Source: Planctomycetota bacterium
GTDB lineage: Bacteria > Planctomycetota > PLA2
Assembly: GCA_021776735.1 (NCBI GenBank)
Contig: JAJFFH010000006.1
Coordinates: 1-64,000, forward strand
Reading direction: 5' to 3'
Length of the DNA stretch: 64,000 nucleotides
Positions 8,351 through 24,795 of this stretch are shown piece by piece; position 1 is the stretch's first letter, and each line of letters begins with the position of its first letter. Made by a program: the position numbers and the translations under genes. The notes beneath the pieces are model-generated. The model was given only the letters and a program-made list of their open reading frames with translations. It was not told the origin of the DNA and ran no database searches.

Positions 8351-10189
8351 ATGAATCGAAGAGGAGGCAGCAAACGGACGGCGATGTTTCTGGCGGCACT
8401 CGTGGCCGGAGCGATGCTGGTTTCCCGCCTGCAAGCGGACGAGAACGTCGCGGCCGTCGAGAAGGAGGTGCGCGCGTTTCTCAAAGAGGCGGAGAAGGGC
8501 GAACTTGCCGATGTGCTCGATCTTGATGCGATCGCGCGCACGATCGAGAAGCTGGCCGGTCGGGATGTCGCTCCCTACGCGGTGGTCCGTGCGGCGCTCG
8601 AACAAAAGCTCGCGCGAGCCGAGGTGCTTCTTGTTCTCAAGGGGCTGAAGACACGACGCGTCGAGGTGATGGGTACCGACGATGCCATCGTGATCGCTGA
8701 CGTCCGCGTTCCTTTCTTGGACGCGTGGGTGCGCCAGCGACTTGCCGTGCACAAGACTCCGCGCGGCTGGCGCATACAGGACTTCGGAGAACTCGCCCTT
8801 GGCCTCAGCCTTGTCGAGTTCATGGAAACAGCCCTTCACGCCGTGGCCAGGGGCGAGAACGGAGTCTTAGCCACACTCGCGGTGATCAAGGAGCTGATTC
8901 ACGGATTCGATCAGCTCGATGCGGAAGAAGCATCGGTTCGGCTCAAGTCCGTTGCCCACCACGCGCTGCCGCGCCGGCTCGATGCGATTCGGCACGGCTT
9001 TACTTCGTTGGTTCAGGTCGGCGCTGACGAACTCGACGATGCACTGGCGAGCGCGGATCGTGCGCTCGCGCTCGTGCCGGATCTTCCGATTGCCCTTCAG
9101 GCAAAGGCCATGGCGCTGGTCGAGCTCGGTCGGGCCGGCGAAGCGTTGCCGATCCTGGCTCGGCACCGAAAGACGTTTGGCGACAGCGCGGATGCTCGCG
9201 AGACCGAAGTGAGCGCCCTGATCCAGCTCAAGCGCCACGCGGAGGCGAAGACCGTCTGCCTGGCCGGGCTGGCCGAGGAGACGCGTCCTTGGTTGGTTGC
9301 TCGGTATGCGAAGCTTCTGCCGACCGAGTCCAAGGCGCTCATTCTTCCGTACTTCGACAAGCTGGGACCGCCGGGGGATGCCTTGATCGAGTGCGGCGAG
9401 GAGTTCGGCGAGCTCGATGAATGGCAGGCCCTGGAACTCGTTTGTGCGCATGCCCGCAAGACGATTCCGGACCATCCGGATGTCGCCTACTACGACGCTC
9501 TCGCGAAGTGGGCCACCGGGCGTGCGACGGAGGCGGCAAAACTGGTCTATCCCGCGATCGAACGTGCCCCGGCGGACGAACGCGACGCGTTCGTGGAGCT
9601 GTACCTCGACGTCATGCACGAGCTCGAAAAGGGGCTCTCCGGCTACCGGCGGCTCGCGGACCGGGATCGCGGATTCGGGTTCGCGTGTTTGGCCCGGACC
9701 CTGTACGACGACGACAAGTACGACGATCTCAAGAAACTCGTGAATAGGCGCCGCGGAGAGACCAAGGATCTTGACCTTGTCCTGATCTGGGAAGCCGAAA
9801 TCCTCTGGCGCAACGACAAGAATGCGGAGCTGATTCCCTTCCTGCGAAGACACGCCGCTGCGATGGCGCGAGTCGAGGGGGAGGAGAGCTGGATGCCCAA
9901 CGACCGGCTTGTCCGCGCCCTGATCAGATTGAAGAAGCTGGACGAGGCTGTGCGGGAGGCGAAGCGCATCGCCGCGGCGGGTGACGAAGCGTACTACCTC
10001 GTCATGGCGTACGCCGCGTCCGGCCGTACAGCGGAGGCCATCCACGCATTCCGTCGTGCCGTAGCAGCCCACCAGCCGGACGACCTGTACACGGACGAGG
10101 ACATGGGCCCGCTCCTCCGCAAGCCGGCATACAAGGAGCTGCACAAGAAGTACCCGCCCCCGTCGATCAAGGACGACGAGAAGAAGTAA
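8351..10189 (+). CDS. exported TPR-like protein, paralogue 1
   Basis: This protein of 612 residues starts with a basic segment and a hydrophobic helix (about residues 12-29), probably a signal peptide ending near LQADE. Residues about 30-165 form a mixed alpha/beta domain of unknown type. From about 210 onward helix-turn-helix repeats of TPR character follow (for example ALASADRALALVPDLPIALQ then AKAMALVELGRAGEALPIL). The C-terminal signature reads GPLLRKPAYKELHKKYPPP and recurs in both following genes. Function is unknown. It is the first of three tandem copies, five bases from the next. The N-terminal KRTAMF is encoded by the interspersed motif. Confidence 0.8.
   Translation: MNRRGGSKRTAMFLAALVAGAMLVSRLQADENVAAVEKEVRAFLKEAEKGELADVLDLDAIARTIEKLAGRDVAPYAVVRAALEQKLARAEVLLVLKGLKTRRVEVMGTDDAIVIADVRVPFLDAWVRQRLAVHKTPRGWRIQDFGELALGLSLVEFMETALHAVARGENGVLATLAVIKELIHGFDQLDAEEASVRLKSVAHHALPRRLDAIRHGFTSLVQVGADELDDALASADRALALVPDLPIALQAKAMALVELGRAGEALPILARHRKTFGDSADARETEVSALIQLKRHAEAKTVCLAGLAEETRPWLVARYAKLLPTESKALILPYFDKLGPPGDALIECGEEFGELDEWQALELVCAHARKTIPDHPDVAYYDALAKWATGRATEAAKLVYPAIERAPADERDAFVELYLDVMHELEKGLSGYRRLADRDRGFGFACLARTLYDDDKYDDLKKLVNRRRGETKDLDLVLIWEAEILWRNDKNAELIPFLRRHAAAMARVEGEESWMPNDRLVRALIRLKKLDEAVREAKRIAAAGDEAYYLVMAYAASGRTAEAIHAFRRAVAAHQPDDLYTDEDMGPLLRKPAYKELHKKYPPPSIKDDEKK
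8374..8387 (+). repeat. interspersed motif copy 5
   Basis: Perfect core with the full flanks CAGCAA and TTC, at codons 9-13 of TPR paralogue 1. The motif ATG (8384) is in frame and could itself serve as a start. Confidence 0.85.
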
Positions 10190-10194
10190 TTGCC

Positions 10195-12054
10195 ATGGAC
10201 CGAAGACGAGGCAGCAAACCGACGGCGATGTTTCTCGTGGCGCTGGCGTTGTTGGCCGGTGCGTGCGAAAAGGCGAAACCCGGGAAGACGAGGTCCGCCC
10301 GTGTCGCCGGCTCGCGCCATGTGACCGAGGACGTGCAGACGTTCTTGACGCGCGCGACCGATCTCGAATTCGAAGACATCCTGGACACCAAGGCCGTCGA
10401 AGAGGCCGCCCGGAGGAGAGCCGGGCTGAGCCTGGGTGCCACGCTAGACGCCTGGGAGTTCATTGAAAGCCAGCGGCCGCGCTGGATCATGCACTATCCA
10501 CGCTTGAAAGGAATGCGTGTTCGTCGCATCCAGCGCAAGGGAACGGATCGGGCCGTGGCTGTCGTCGATGTCTGGACGTGCAAGGGAGATCGGTGGCGGT
10601 ACCGCTTGGAGCTGGCGTGGACGACATTCAGGTGGCGGGTGTCGGATTTTGGGGCACTTACCAACGGGATGAGTGCCGTGGAGACGGTAGCCGGGCTGCT
10701 TCGTGCGGCGGCGGCCGAAAGGGACGGAGTCGTTCGCGCCATCGTCGTACTCGGCGAGCTGCTCCACGCCTACCCCGGCCTCGACAAGTCCGAGCAGATG
10801 CTGAGTGCCATGGCGAATCAGTCGCTGCCGCGTCGCTTCAACGCGCAGCGTCACGCCATAGCGGCTTTGATACGGTTCGGCAAGGGGAACAGTGCGGCCG
10901 CGCTCGTCGCGGCGGACCGGGCCTTGGCCCTTGATCCGGGATTGCCTTTGGCGCTCCTGGCGAAGGCTTCCATCCTGCTGGACCTGCAACGACCCGCCGA
11001 GGTGCTTCCTGTTGTTGCGGCGCATCGCGCACGGTTCGGTGACGGTGCCGATGCGCGCGAGGTCGAGGTCGAGGCTCTGCTTGCGCTGAACCGGCCGGAA
11101 GAGGCCCTGAACGCGTGCCGGGCGGGGCTGGCCGACGAGAACATGCCGTGGCTCATCGCGCAGTTGGCGATGCTGCTGGGTCCGGACAAGAAGGACACGA
11201 TCCTGCCGCATCTCGAGAAGCTTGATCCGTCGTCCGGCGCGTTTCGCGAGTTGGGCGAATTGCTCGCGGACTACGAGGAGTGGGACGCGCTGGAGATGGC
11301 GTGTCTCCACCTTCGGAAGAAGGTTCCGAATCACCCGCGCGTTGCCTACTACGAGGCGCTTGCGAAGCTGTATACCACTCGGCCGGAGGAGGCAGAAAAA
11401 ACCGCGTTTCTCGCTATCACAGACGCTTCGGGGACCGATCGGCGAGCGCTCGTGGGCCTCTACATCGATGCGACGTATCGCGAAGGGCACGGTCTTGCCG
11501 GATACGCGAAACTCGCGGATCGGGATCGAGCGCACGGCTTCGCCTATGCGGCGCAGGCTTTGTACGCGGCCGACGAGTATGTCCAGCTCCGGGAACTTGT
11601 GAACAAGCGACGCACGGAGACTAGGAATCTCGACCTCGTACTCCTTTGGGAGACGGAACTCCTGTGGCACGCGGGCGGCAAGGACGCCGAGGTCGTGGCC
11701 TTTGTCCGCAAACATGCCGATCAGCTCAAGCGCGTGAAGGATGAGGCCCGCTGGATCCCCGGCGACAGACTCATCCGATCCCTGGTTCGCCTGAACAAAC
11801 TCGACGAGGCCGAATGGGAAGCGCGGCGCTTCTATGGCACCCACAAGGACCCCTACCTCATCATCCTGGTCTGCGCTTCCGCCGGCAAGACCGGCGACGC
11901 GATCCACGGATTCCACAAGGCGCTCGCCGGCGGCTACGCGCCCGCGGACCTCTACAACGACATCGACGTGGGCCCGCTCCTCCGCAGGCCGGCGTACAAG
12001 GATCTGCACAAGAAGTATCCGCCGCCGCCGATTGAGGACGACGGGAAGAAGTAA
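10195..12054 (+). CDS. exported TPR-like protein, paralogue 2 (possible lipoprotein)
   Basis: This 619-residue protein is homologous along its length to its two neighbours and ends in GPLLRRPAYKDLHKKYPPP. The N terminus has a basic start (MDRRRGSKPTAM), a hydrophobic helix and then LLAGACEK. The Cys fits a loose lipobox, so this copy may be lipid-anchored while paralogues 1 and 3 have no such Cys. The TPR part again spans about residues 210-600. The five-base spacing from paralogue 1 suggests one transcript. Confidence 0.8.
   Translation: MDRRRGSKPTAMFLVALALLAGACEKAKPGKTRSARVAGSRHVTEDVQTFLTRATDLEFEDILDTKAVEEAARRRAGLSLGATLDAWEFIESQRPRWIMHYPRLKGMRVRRIQRKGTDRAVAVVDVWTCKGDRWRYRLELAWTTFRWRVSDFGALTNGMSAVETVAGLLRAAAAERDGVVRAIVVLGELLHAYPGLDKSEQMLSAMANQSLPRRFNAQRHAIAALIRFGKGNSAAALVAADRALALDPGLPLALLAKASILLDLQRPAEVLPVVAAHRARFGDGADAREVEVEALLALNRPEEALNACRAGLADENMPWLIAQLAMLLGPDKKDTILPHLEKLDPSSGAFRELGELLADYEEWDALEMACLHLRKKVPNHPRVAYYEALAKLYTTRPEEAEKTAFLAITDASGTDRRALVGLYIDATYREGHGLAGYAKLADRDRAHGFAYAAQALYAADEYVQLRELVNKRRTETRNLDLVLLWETELLWHAGGKDAEVVAFVRKHADQLKRVKDEARWIPGDRLIRSLVRLNKLDEAEWEARRFYGTHKDPYLIILVCASAGKTGDAIHGFHKALAGGYAPADLYNDIDVGPLLRRPAYKDLHKKYPPPPIEDDGKK
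10218..10231 (+). repeat. interspersed motif copy 6
   Basis: One change in the core (ACCGACGGCGATGT), same position in the signal peptide as in paralogue 1, with flanks GCAGCAA and TTC preserved. Confidence 0.75.
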
Positions 12055-12093
12055 CCCTGCGCGACAAGGACAAGGTCTGACACAATAGGAATC

Positions 12094-13935
12094 ATGCATC
12101 GGAGAGGACGAAGAGGACGTAGCACCCGGCTTGCCGTCCTCGCGATCCTGGCGACTTTGATCGGGTCGTGGCCGGCGATGGCCGAAGACAAGGACACGGC
12201 GGCTACCTCGGAGGTGCTCGCGTTTCTCGAGCGTGCCTCGCGCGGATCCTTGGCCGACGCCGTCGATGCTACGGCGATTGCGGAATCCGTTGCGCGGAGA
12301 GCCGGCGTCAAGCGCGCCGATGTGCAACCTCTCGTCGCGTTGATTCGGACGGCCCTGACTCGGGAGACCGATCTGGATCTCGATGGGTTTCGGATCCGAG
12401 CCGTGCGCCGCATTGGCGCCGGCTTGTGTGAAGTCGTGGGCGACAGCGGCACAGGCGACGACTGGGTCCGCTTTCGTCTCACGGTCCGTAGGAAGGCCGG
12501 CCGTTGGCGCATCGTGGAGTACCGTGACATGTCGGGCTCCATCGGGCTGCTCGACGCATTGGTGCTCGGTGTCACTGCGGCGCGGCAAGGCGATCGCGAT
12601 GTGGTTCGGGCCGTCTCCGCGATGATGCGGGTTCGCGACGCCGATGTCGACGCGGAGTCCAAGGAGCTGATCGCGATCATGGAAGAGGTCGCCGAGGTCA
12701 AGCTCCCGGTGCGTTTCGATGCCGCTCGCCACATCGTTGTCGCGATGCTCAAGAACGAGGACGACCCGAAGGGTGCCCTGGCGAGTGCCAACCGTGCGCT
12801 CGAACTGCAACCCGGCCTCCCCTACGCGCTGCTCATCAAGGCGTCGGTCCTGACCGATCTCGAACGCCCGGCCGAAGCCCTGCCGCTTTGCGCCCAGCAC
12901 CGCAAGGCGATTGGTGACAATGCCGCCGCGCGTGCGTTCGAGGTAGACGCGCTAGGTGCGCTCGATCGACTCGAGGAGGCCAAGGCCGCCTGCGTCGCCG
13001 GGCTGGACGAGGAGGTGCGTCCGGACCTCGTCGCACGCTATGCGACTCTCCTCCCCGAGGATGGGAAAGCGGGCATCGTTCCGTTTCTCGTCGAACTCGG
13101 ACCGCCGGGCGATGTTCTGGGCGAGCTGTGTGATGCGCTTACCGAGCGAGATCAGTGGCGTGCGGTCGAGATCGTATGCGCGCGTGCGCGTCTCAGGATT
13201 CCCGACCATTCCGACGTGGCCTACTACGACGCGCTTGCCAAGCTGGGGACGGACCGGGCAGAGGTGGCGGCGCGGATCGTGTATCCGGCCATCGCCACCG
13301 CACCTGAGGACGGGCGCCCGTTGTTTGTGGAACTCTATCTCGACGCGATGCTGTTGCAGGACAAGGGGCTCGCCGCGTATGGCCGCCTGGCGGCGCAGGA
13401 TCGCCAAGCCGGATTCGCGTATCTGGCGAGAGAGCTGTGGAATGAGGATCGGTACGACGAATTGCGCACTCTGGCGCGGCGCCATCGGACGGAAACGAGA
13501 GAGTTGGGACTCATCCTCGTCTGGGAGACCGAGCTTCTCTGGAACGACGACAAGATGGCCGAACTCGTTGCTTTCGTCCGCAAGCATAGGGTCGCCCTGG
13601 CCCGCGTCGAGGGCGACGACGCCTGGATGCCGAACGATCGACTGCTGCGTGCGTTGCTGGAGCTGAAGCGAATCGGAGAGGCCGTCCGGGAGGCGGAGCG
13701 AATTGCGGCCGCGGAAGAGGATTCGTTTTATCTGGTGATGGTGTACGCCGCGGCGGGGCGGACGGAAGACGCGATACGTTGTTTTCGCGAGGCGATCGCC
13801 AACAACGGCCATGACCCGGAAGATCTGTTCGAGGACTCCGTTATCGGCCCGCTCCTCCGCAAGCCGGCATTCAAGGAACTGCACAAGAAGTACCCGCCGC
13901 CGCCGATCAAGTCCGACGAAGAAGAGGACGGGTAG
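12094..13935 (+). CDS. exported TPR-like protein, paralogue 3
   Basis: This 613-residue protein has a signal peptide of about 30 residues ending in SWPAMAED. Mid and C-terminal parts align with paralogues 1 and 2, including NRALELQPGLPYALLIKAS and the end GPLLRKPAFKELHKKYPPP with an acidic tail. Unlike its two upstream relatives its N-terminal coding region lacks the interspersed motif, which shows that the motif is not required for the signal peptide. It lies 39 bases after paralogue 2. Function is unknown; a periplasmic scaffold is a reasonable guess from the TPR fold. Confidence 0.8.
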   Translation: MHRRGRRGRSTRLAVLAILATLIGSWPAMAEDKDTAATSEVLAFLERASRGSLADAVDATAIAESVARRAGVKRADVQPLVALIRTALTRETDLDLDGFRIRAVRRIGAGLCEVVGDSGTGDDWVRFRLTVRRKAGRWRIVEYRDMSGSIGLLDALVLGVTAARQGDRDVVRAVSAMMRVRDADVDAESKELIAIMEEVAEVKLPVRFDAARHIVVAMLKNEDDPKGALASANRALELQPGLPYALLIKASVLTDLERPAEALPLCAQHRKAIGDNAAARAFEVDALGALDRLEEAKAACVAGLDEEVRPDLVARYATLLPEDGKAGIVPFLVELGPPGDVLGELCDALTERDQWRAVEIVCARARLRIPDHSDVAYYDALAKLGTDRAEVAARIVYPAIATAPEDGRPLFVELYLDAMLLQDKGLAAYGRLAAQDRQAGFAYLARELWNEDRYDELRTLARRHRTETRELGLILVWETELLWNDDKMAELVAFVRKHRVALARVEGDDAWMPNDRLLRALLELKRIGEAVREAERIAAAEEDSFYLVMVYAAAGRTEDAIRCFREAIANNGHDPEDLFEDSVIGPLLRKPAFKELHKKYPPPPIKSDEEEDG

Positions 13936-21791: not shown

Positions 21792-22562
21792 GTGGAATCA
21801 GTGGAGCCGACGCGCCGATTCTCCAACCGGGCCACGGACTACGTTTCGTCACGCCCGGGGTATCCCGAAGCGGCATTTGAGGTAACGCTGACGGACGGCG
21901 ATGTCTTCGTCGCGGCCGATGTGGGGGCGGGCACCGGCATCTCCGCGCGGGCGCTGGCCGACCGCGGCGTGGATGTGTTTGCCGTCGAGCCCAATGCGGC
22001 GATGCGCGCGGTGGCGGCGCCGCATCCCCGCGTGCGCTGGATCTCCGCGCGCGCCGAGGCCACCGGACTGGCCACGGGCGGCGTCCAATTGGTCTTGTGC
22101 GCGCAGGCGTTTCACTGGTTCGATCGCCCGGCCGCGTTCGCCGAATTCGCGCGCATTCTTCGGCCCGCCGGGCGGCTGGCTCTGCTCTGGAACTACGCCG
22201 ATCCGGACGATCCGGACGATCCGGTCGCAGCGGGCTACAACGCGCTCGTCGGTCCGGCGCGCGAGACTATCCCGGCGTCCAGAAAGACCTCGCTCGGCGA
22301 TCCGTTCACGGGCCAGGATCTGTTTCGCGACGTGCGTCACGAGCAGTTTCAGCATGTGCAGGTGCTCGATCGCGCCGGGCTCATCGCGCGCGCGCTGAGC
22401 TCGTCGTTCTGCCCCAAAGAGGGCGAACTCCACCAGCGAATCGTGAACGGGTTGCACGAGCTGTTTGAAACGCACGCCGGCGCGGACGGCACGGTCCGTT
22501 TCGGGTACCGTACGACGCTATGGCTTGCGCGCTCCGCTTCTCTCTGGCACTCGCCCTGTTGA
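21792..22562 (+). CDS. class I SAM-dependent methyltransferase
   Basis: 256-residue protein with the nucleotide-binding motif ADVGAGTGISARAL (residues about 42-55), AVEPNAAMRA (acidic end of strand 2), VLCAQAFHWFD (motif post-II) and ILRPAGRLALLWNY. This matches the small-molecule methyltransferase group with an N-terminal SNRATDYVSSRPGYP. The acceptor is unknown. The start is GTG at 21792, 20 bases from the divergent ABC-F start. The last 43 bases overlap the start of the selenoprotein gene in another frame. Confidence 0.85.
   Translation: MESVEPTRRFSNRATDYVSSRPGYPEAAFEVTLTDGDVFVAADVGAGTGISARALADRGVDVFAVEPNAAMRAVAAPHPRVRWISARAEATGLATGGVQLVLCAQAFHWFDRPAAFAEFARILRPAGRLALLWNYADPDDPDDPVAAGYNALVGPARETIPASRKTSLGDPFTGQDLFRDVRHEQFQHVQVLDRAGLIARALSSSFCPKEGELHQRIVNGLHELFETHAGADGTVRFGYRTTLWLARSASLWHSPC
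21891..21904 (+). repeat. interspersed motif copy 11
   Basis: Perfect 14-mer at codons 34-38 of the methyltransferase, read as TDGDV. Confidence 0.85.
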
Positions 22563-23836
22563 CGACGCCGCTGCTTGCCGGGCCCGGTGTCGGCTACGGG
22601 CGCGGACAGATTCATCCCGACTTTCATCTGCCCAAGCTCGACAAGACGATGGGGCACCTGTCTGAGTTTCGCGGCAAGAAGGTCTTCCTGTTCAACTTCG
22701 CGTCGTGGTGAGCGGGGTGCCGACGCCAACTGCCCGTGTGGCAGAAACATCTACAGCCCTACATCGACCGCGGTTTCGTCGTCGCGATCGGCGTGGTGCA
22801 GGAACAGCACCCGGACCGCGCGAAGCTCTACAAGCAGTGGCGCCAGCTCGGCTGGACGATCTTTGTCGATTCGCTGAACGTGCTCGACCACAAGGTGGTT
22901 CCCATTCCGATGGGTCTTTCCATCAACGGCCACGTGCAGTTCCCGCGCCTGACGCGTGGCAACCTGAAGGCGTTCCTGGACAAGGACGAGCGGCTGGTCG
23001 ATACCCCGCGCCCGCGAGCGCCGCACGCCATGAAGGGCGACGAGTACTTCTACGCGAACAAGCCCGGGAGTCTCGACCGCGCAATCGCCTCGTACGGGAA
23101 GCAGAAAGACAACCGCCGCGCACGGTTTCGCCTCGGCGTCGCGCTACGCCGCCGGGCCGACTCCGCTGCCCGCAAGCCCGGCGACGCGCAGGCGGCCGCG
23201 ACTGCGTGGACTCAAGCGCTGGCCGCCGATCCGAACCAATACATCTGGCGCCGCCGGCTCCAGCAGTACGGTCCGCTGCTCGCCAAGCCGTACAACTTCT
23301 ACGGCTGGGTGAAACAGGCGCGGGCCGACATCAAGGCGCGCGGCGAGACGCCGATAGCGCTGAATCCGGAGCCGCGTGGCTCCGAGCTCATGCAGCGCGG
23401 TGGCAAGGTCGATGCGCCGCCGGCCAACAAGGATCCGCAGGGTCGCATTGCGCGGGACCCGGGGTTCGTGGCCGTCGATACCGTCGTGACCCCGGCCCGA
23501 GTGCGGCCCGGCCATGTCGCGCGCGTGCGCATGGTCATTACGATCGACAAGGCGTTTTGGAACAACGAAGCCGATCCGCTCACGCTGTTTGTCGATCGCG
23601 CGGGCGTGGAGGGCGTGTTCGTGCATCAGAACCCGAAGCCGGCCTCAACCCGCGAGACGCGCGTGCTGGAATTCGACGTCCCGATTCCCGCGGACGAAAA
23701 GCGAAAAAGCATCGCCGTCCTTGGCTATGTCCTGTTCAACCTGTGCGAAAAGGAAGGCGGCGTGTGCCGCCTGTTGCGGCTCGACGTCGGTGTGATGATC
23801 AAGGTAGACAAGAACGCGCCCGCGATCATGCGCTAA
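22520..23836 (+). CDS. exported thioredoxin-fold selenoprotein, UGA at 22709-22711 read as Sec
   Basis: The frame from ATG 22520 is interrupted only by TGA at codon 64 and then stays open to 23836 (438 residues if read through). Around the TGA the translation is FLFNFASW-U-AGCRRQLPVWQ. This is a redoxin active site in which the first Cys of CxxC is replaced by the UGA codon, and the rest of the thioredoxin fold follows on both sides. A signal peptide (MACALRFSLALALLTTPLLA) leads it. A hairpin with a GT-containing loop begins 19 bases after the UGA (separate entry). The C-terminal half has a TPR-like stretch (about residues 180-260) and a beta-rich end. A disabled pseudogene is the alternative, but frame and conservation are intact downstream for 375 codons. 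A separate start at 22736 would lack the active site. Confidence 0.85.
22730..22744 (+). promoter_or_regulatory. candidate bacterial SECIS hairpin
   Basis: CTGCC pairs perfectly with GGCAG around the loop CGTGT. The stem starts 19 bases after the TGA at 22709-22711, inside the reading frame. Bacterial SECIS elements sit just 3' of the Sec codon and carry a G-U in the apical loop, as seen here. A stem of only five pairs is minimal. Confidence 0.65.
23709..23722 (-). repeat. interspersed motif copy 12
   Basis: Exact core near the 3' end of the selenoprotein gene, read as SIAVL. Confidence 0.8.
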
Positions 23837-24795
23837 CGTTTCTTCGCGGTCACTTTGGCTTTGGTGGCCGTGGCGACGCGGCCTTCGTCGAGCCATTTCT
23901 TCGCGCGGGGGTCGCCTTTGACGTAGGCGTCGAACAGGGCGAGGCCCGCGTAGCGCACGACGTTTACGAAGTCCTCGTTTTTTTCGCGCTTCTTGCCGAA
24001 ACGGCGGGAGCCGGCGATGCCGCCGAAGTCGTGAGTCGCGCCGTCGATGAACGCGAGGTATTTGTTGCCGGGCGTGCTGCGCTCGTAGGCGGCGAGGCGC
24101 CACTGCGGTGTCTTTTTCTTGTCGCCGAACGGGTCGCCGTCCTTGGAGCCTGTGATGAGCAGCGCGGGGCGCTTCATGTCCGACCACGAATCTTCGCGGA
24201 GGAGTCCGCCGACGCCCTGCGGCGACACGAGCAGCAGGCACTTCGGACGCTTGTCGGTGTAGGTCTTCGCCTTGCGGAAGAGCCGGTACGTCTTGGTGCC
24301 GCCGACCAGCATCGTCGTGTGCGCGCCGAACGAGTGGCCGCCCATGCCGATGCGCTCCTTGTCGGGCTTCACGGGGAGTTTTTTGCCGATCGTGCCAAGT
24401 GACTCGATGAGAAACGAGACGTCGCCGGGACGGCTGGTCCACGCGCGAAAAGCCTTGATGCGCGACTGCATGCCGTTCTTGAGCGAGTCCGCGTGTGTCG
24501 GCTGGATCACGACGTAGCCGTGCGCGGCCCAGAACGCGGCGAGCGGCTGGTAGTTGTCCTTGCTGCCGTACATCCCGTGCGACCAGAGGATGACCGGCGC
24601 GCTGCCCTTGGCACGGGGACTGCCCGTCGGCATCGGGAAGGTGATCTTGAAAACGACGTCTCTTTGTCGCAGTTCGTCCCTGAGCGACATCTTGGCGATG
24701 ACACCGATCCTGTGCGATCCGGGGGCGGGGCGATAGGACGCCGGCTCGGCACGGATCGCCGTCGCGAGTGAGACGAGAGCCAAAAGGAGTTTCAT
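23833..24795 (-). CDS. exported alpha/beta hydrolase, dienelactone/PAF-acetylhydrolase-like
   Basis: 320-residue protein with a signal peptide (MKLLLALVSLATAIRA). It shows the oxyanion-side strand VILWSHGMYGSKDNYQPLAAFWAAHGYVV, the nucleophile elbow GHSFGAH (Ser at about residue 154), a late Asp in GSKDGDPFG and a His in GATHDFGG. This fits the platelet-activating-factor acetylhydrolase/chlorophyllase-like branch of alpha/beta hydrolases, and the ester substrate is unknown. It overlaps the end of the selenoprotein gene by four bases on the opposite strand (convergent). Confidence 0.8.
   Translation of the reverse strand: MKLLLALVSLATAIRAEPASYRPAPGSHRIGVIAKMSLRDELRQRDVVFKITFPMPTGSPRAKGSAPVILWSHGMYGSKDNYQPLAAFWAAHGYVVIQPTHADSLKNGMQSRIKAFRAWTSRPGDVSFLIESLGTIGKKLPVKPDKERIGMGGHSFGAHTTMLVGGTKTYRLFRKAKTYTDKRPKCLLLVSPQGVGGLLREDSWSDMKRPALLITGSKDGDPFGDKKKTPQWRLAAYERSTPGNKYLAFIDGATHDFGGIAGSRRFGKKREKNEDFVNVVRYAGLALFDAYVKGDPRAKKWLDEGRVATATKAKVTAKKR

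Follow-up and report, generated by a model that had tools for sequence, protein, structure and literature searches.

A probable selenoprotein family with a ResA-like domain, a TPR-like middle part and a DsbD-N-related C-terminus

The UGA-containing gene and its product

The window analysed here is a stretch of 64,000 nucleotides from a Planctomycetota bacterium (contig JAJFFH010000006.1 of assembly GCA_021776735.1). A gene for a putative selenoprotein is located at 22520-23836 on the plus strand, as are all of its parts described below. It has 438 codons including one UGA, ends with a TAA stop and is otherwise an open frame. The UGA, which would be read as selenocysteine 64 (22709-22711), is followed by 374 open codons and the TAA. 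A preliminary description of this DNA had placed an in-frame stop where the first redox Cys of a thioredoxin motif is expected, which direct reading confirmed; the open continuation that it reported is present as well, its length of 375 codons being one too many. The surrounding residues, FASW-U-AGCRR, form a thioredoxin-type active site whose first redox residue is Sec. Mechanical ORF calling splits the gene exactly as had been foreseen, into fragments at 22520-22711 (63 aa) and 22736-23836 (366 aa, GTG start). The G+C content of the codon positions is similar upstream and downstream of the TGA.

The start of the gene is overlapped by 43 bases by a methyltransferase-like ORF (21792-22562) and its stop by 4 bases by a convergent hydrolase-like gene (23833-24795). 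Elsewhere in the window, at 8351-13935, three tandem genes (612, 619, and 613 aa) with similar N-termini are apparently paralogues.

The full protein was modelled with a mean pLDDT of 93. Its hydrophobic N-terminus (22520-22582, boundary approximate; MACALRFSLALALLTTPLLAG), with a helix at residues 3-13 in the model, is a probable export signal. It is followed by a ResA/TlpA-type thioredoxin domain (residues about 29-150, 22604-22969), identified with Pfam, where AhpC-TSA (1.8e-10) and Redoxin (7.4e-8) match above their cut-offs, and with Foldseek, where the top matches are ResA with a TMt of about 0.75. Cys67 (22718-22720), the resolving cysteine of the UxxC motif, is invariant in the best 80 of 216 matching stretches described below, and so is Arg68 just past the UGA site. 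Pro128 (22901-22903) is Pro in 79 of the same 80 and, judged from the fold, would occupy the thioredoxin cis-proline position. The protein thus has the fold, the (C/U)xxC motif and the cis-Pro of ResA/TlpA-like proteins. A helical TPR-like middle part follows (residues about 172-273, 23033-23338); its helices are seen in the model, and of the best 80 of 216 members as many as 63 are matched by TPR models of Pfam. The C-terminus is a beta-sandwich (residues 299-438, 23414-23833; pLDDT 94) that hhalign relates to the N-terminal domain of DsbD. It carries a Cys-x6-Cys pair, Cys409 (23744-23746) and Cys416 (23765-23767), each of which is Cys in 77 of the best 80 of 216 members. The preliminary description had named a thioredoxin-fold selenoprotein; the fold was correct, and the TPR-like and DsbD-N-like parts had been missed.

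Selenocysteine machinery, conservation of the UGA and the downstream hairpin

The genome (5.97 Mb, 93% complete) was searched for the genes of Sec insertion, named in the preliminary description as selA, selB, selC (tRNA-Sec) and selD, and all of them were found. selD, selA and selB lie adjacent on one contig (C20, 324296-328708). selA was located at C20:325383-326459, selB matched with 339 bits against a cut-off of 242, and selD (C20:324296-325216) with 362 bits. The tRNA-Sec scored 65.7 bits against the Rfam cut-off of 47, and ARAGORN independently calls a tRNA-SeC with the anticodon tca (UCA). The selD gene has its own in-frame TGA, giving the motif GG-U-AAK with the UGA at what we take to be the catalytic position of SelD; selD would therefore also be cut short by ordinary annotation. 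A reassignment of UGA to an ordinary amino acid throughout the genome, which would likewise let the frame run through the codon, has a negligible probability, since 14 of the 35 gene-like ORFs of the window and many homologues of the 22520-23836 gene stop at TGA and since the full Sec machinery is encoded.

In 59 relatives a protein search detected homologues, complete or partial, with exactly one in-frame TGA in the part that holds the active site. The homologues can be aligned across their full length with 30-51% identity, and the motif FASWU.GCR is identical in all 16 homologues that were read in relatives. As an unbiased approach, a species-level genome collection was searched with a query restricted to the region downstream of the active site. 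This matched 216 stretches, of which the best 80 were kept and read. All 79 of these loci that cover the site have TGA and none has a Cys codon; 77 were read directly, L081 and L104 were added on inspection, and L086 starts past the site. Among 199 sampled Planctomycetota genomes the family was present in 24 (E below 1e-90), with TGA in 24/24. The alignment of homologues, by which the preliminary description had wanted to distinguish Cys from Sec in this column, hence shows UGA without exception. A selA match was found in 22 of the 24 family-bearing genomes versus 114 of the 175 others (p 0.009); the two family-bearing genomes lacking one, G005 and G158, are both incomplete assemblies.

The best 80 of 216 matches carry the labels Planctomycetota, Acidobacteriota, Gemmatimonadota, Verrucomicrobiota, Hydrogenedentota, Sumerlaeota, Poribacteria, Armatimonadota, Anaerolineae, Neomarinimicrobiota and Actinomycetota. 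By these matches the family appears widespread, the labels covering some ten bacterial phyla besides Planctomycetota; nearly all loci are from metagenome bins, and single phylum labels may therefore be wrong.

Several other sequences were encountered in these searches. A stop-free match (L133; G035:C197:30012-30779) was rejected as a distant paralogue with the sequence FASWDNSR and no redox residues, which is probably catalytically dead. Plasmid records yielded only ordinary ResA/TlpA-type proteins. A Gemmataceae copy (L069:6001-7191) has a TAG five codons past the Sec UGA, which may reflect gene decay or faulty assembly; on the minus strand of the same locus a further frame with ASW-U-PYCQKQLVQLQ possibly encodes a second Sec-containing redoxin.

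A single base separates the Cys codons (TGC/TGT) from TGA, and errors occur in such assemblies, so a mutated or misread Cys codon in this strain had to be considered. Such a pseudogene or sequencing error is very improbable: no homologue with Cys was found at this column among the best 80 of 216, the TGA recurs at every locus and in every family-bearing genome, the frame past it is intact with normal codon bias, and disabling mutations, which the preliminary description had named as a sign against its reading, are not present.

The UGA is followed after 18 nucleotides by the hairpin CTGCC-CGTGT-GGCAG (22730-22744), a candidate bSECIS apical hairpin with the arms CTGCC (22730-22734) and GGCAG (22740-22744) and the loop CGTGT (22735-22739). 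Sequence and loop, with its G followed by U, are as the preliminary description had given them. Published rules for bSECIS elements give a spacing of 16-37 nt, a loop of 3-9 nt with G as one of its first two bases and a stem of 4-16 bp (PMC13188914). The loop here starts 23 nt past the UGA and is 5 nt long, on a 5-bp stem, so that scoring the hairpin against these rules supports the bSECIS assignment, as does its covariation. A further bSECIS criterion is a minimum free energy that does not exceed -7.5 kcal/mol. The fold energy of this sequence is -13.7 kcal/mol for 48 nt (z = +0.25), that of the bare hairpin -6.0 to -7.1 kcal/mol. Since the fold energy of the single hairpin is not unusual, the hairpin alone is weak evidence, and selection on the RNA was therefore tested.

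Codons were redrawn among their synonyms according to each gene's own usage in 2000 trials. The 5-bp stem is kept in 78 of 83 sequences, compared with 30.6 +/- 4.1 after randomisation (maximum 44 in 2000); with near-duplicates removed it is kept in 18 of 19 versus 6.9 +/- 2.0. The stem pair 23:33 joins the wobble base of a Val/Leu/Ile codon with position 1 of the codon that follows Trp and occurs as G-C, G-U, U-A, and A-U as well as C-G (L194), and thus in all four Watson-Crick types. The wobble base tracks its partner codon, which is His/Gln, Tyr, Asn, or Asp. Selection on the protein would offer no explanation for a silent base that follows its pairing partner. In the loop, the Pro-Val codons occur as CCC-GTG (29) or CCG-GTC (13) and never as CCC-GTC or CCG-GTG (p 4e-11, a value overstated because the sequences share ancestry). 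The same codons elsewhere in the same genes are unlinked and combine freely; this same-gene contrast and the thinned stem test are independent of that p value. The loop pair 22735:22738 is kept in 81 of 83 sequences and is the N1:N2 pair of the published bSECIS model. These patterns indicate that the hairpin is under selection at the RNA level. The remaining five of the 83 sequences belong to a URGC sub-clade and have a G-A mismatch in the usual stem register and an alternative longer stem. Members with U-R-G-C instead of U-A-G-C are L079, L094, L098, L100, L103, and L120.

The covariation also bears on the possibility that the UGA is a true stop and a protein of TPR and DsbD-N-like parts is made from an internal start, for which the GTG at 22736 is available. 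We regard this as most unlikely, since the 63 upstream codons remain in frame and can be aligned in every homologue, Cys67 and Arg68 directly past the UGA are invariant, and the synonymous covariation across the hairpin would be left unexplained. The conservation of the TGA and the covariation of synonymous sites show that the observed pattern is more than chance, and the comparisons make it nearly certain that the apparently broken gene is an intact selenoprotein gene.

Relation to known families

The window protein stays below the cut-off of every model in NCBIfam (June 2026). It comes closest to NF041054 (WAxxUGC_long), which it matches with 51.2 bits against a cut-off of 300; the motif is UAGC, not UGC, and the protein is not a member. 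Among the best 80 of 216 members the best E value for this model is 2.5e-26, in a partial match. NF041054, named 'ResA-like WAxxUGC motif-containing protein', probably corresponds to what reviews call the UGC-containing TlpA/Prx-like selenoprotein and, by sequence comparison, is a sister family of the one described here. In both, a ResA-like domain with Sec precedes a TPR-type region, and sisters of the NF041054 type in other Planctomycetota (L028, L134, L135) have WASWUGCR.HLPVWQ and the same post-UGA hairpin. They differ in the number of residues from Sec to Cys, one in NF041054 (UGC) and two in the window family (UAGC), and in the DsbD-N-like C-terminal domain, which the window family has and the NF041054 members read do not.

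The more than 110 selenoprotein families listed in reviews include one given only as 'Redoxin family protein, UxxC' (PMC13188914; PMC9312934), with the records HEU0032618.1 (PMC13188914, Table 1) and MBA3499694.1 (PMC9312934). Compared by description only, the name, the motif class and the Redoxin match of this entry fit the window protein; no description of its architecture, distribution or SECIS was found in the two papers (PMC13188914; PMC9312934). The entry may be the family of the window protein, and the term "undescribed" used in the preliminary description is thus unproven. Literature text searches for the motif gave no match.

Compared with the ResA/TlpA/DsbE oxidoreductases, the first domain has the same fold and motif position; these proteins have Cys in place of Sec and do not contain the TPR and DsbD-N-like parts. 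In DsbD, too, a thioredoxin domain occurs together with an Ig-like domain that carries a pair of redox Cys. In the window protein the order of these domains is reversed, the TPR part replaces the membrane domain, and Sec replaces Cys.

The C-terminal domain and a possible mechanism

An hhalign comparison of the sandwich with 21 genuine DsbD_N sequences from related genomes gave a probability of 97.2 with both Cys aligned; the control with NPCBM-associated Ig-like domains gave 63.0 and covered no Cys. The Pfam model DsbD_N (PF11412) does not match the window protein and is touched by 5 of 56 members (best E 0.0052), and Foldseek with the C-terminal model returned general beta-sandwich matches and no DsbD N-domain in the top 50. 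The profile alignment suggests that the C-terminal domain is related to the DsbD N-terminal domain as a remote homologue with an aligned redox Cys pair.

The best explanation overall, which we hold with considerable confidence, is an exported Sec thioredoxin with a TPR-like middle part and a DsbD-alpha-like domain that may act as a relay. UGA codon 64 would be decoded as selenocysteine by SelB and tRNA-Sec, guided by the downstream stem-loop, and the product with its U-A-G-C active site would be exported, as predicted. Most likely, the target of Sec64 would be a disulfide, or some other oxidised group, in a periplasmic partner, and Cys67 would resolve the mixed selenenylsulfide. Cys409 and Cys416 could link the thioredoxin domain by electron transfer to a membrane reductase or a TPR-bound partner. 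We infer Sec insertion in the cell from sequence, and likewise infer export, the substrate and the direction in which electrons flow. The genome encodes a separate DsbD_N protein (C20:480410-480736), which is a possible partner of the selenoprotein. No conserved neighbour gene hinting at a substrate was found in the 54 loci compared.

The reading of the C-terminal domain as a built-in DsbD-alpha-like electron relay is, taken by itself, evenly balanced. The Cys409/Cys416 pair is lost only jointly, in L016, L025, and L026 (three of the best 80 of 216), and therefore a relay would not be universal. The protein might instead be a selenoprotein of the plain thioredoxin-type reductase or peroxidase kind, with the C-terminal Cys pair as a structural disulfide only. 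Joint loss of the pair fits this equally well, the three members without it still have Sec, and the similarity to DsbD_N is remote; against it stand the alignment of both Cys with the DsbD_N redox pair and the combination of a thioredoxin with a DsbD-alpha-like domain, which recalls DsbD. We take this alternative seriously and lean slightly away from it. The widest form of the relay reading, an undescribed, Sec-obligate family of soluble periplasmic relay proteins (selenol-thioredoxin, TPR and DsbD-alpha-like parts) in some ten phyla with no Cys form found, is put forward only tentatively.

For many Sec proteins, Cys forms exist in related organisms. That no Cys form was found here among the best 80 of 216 matches suggests a function that needs selenium, and such a function may help to retain the Sec trait in these lineages. 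The bSECIS of the family is instructive in that the encoded residues (Leu...Gln or Val...His) change jointly with synonymous codons while the RNA pairs are kept. In hundreds of environmental genomes, annotation pipelines without a model for the family will split the gene at the codon of its catalytic residue.
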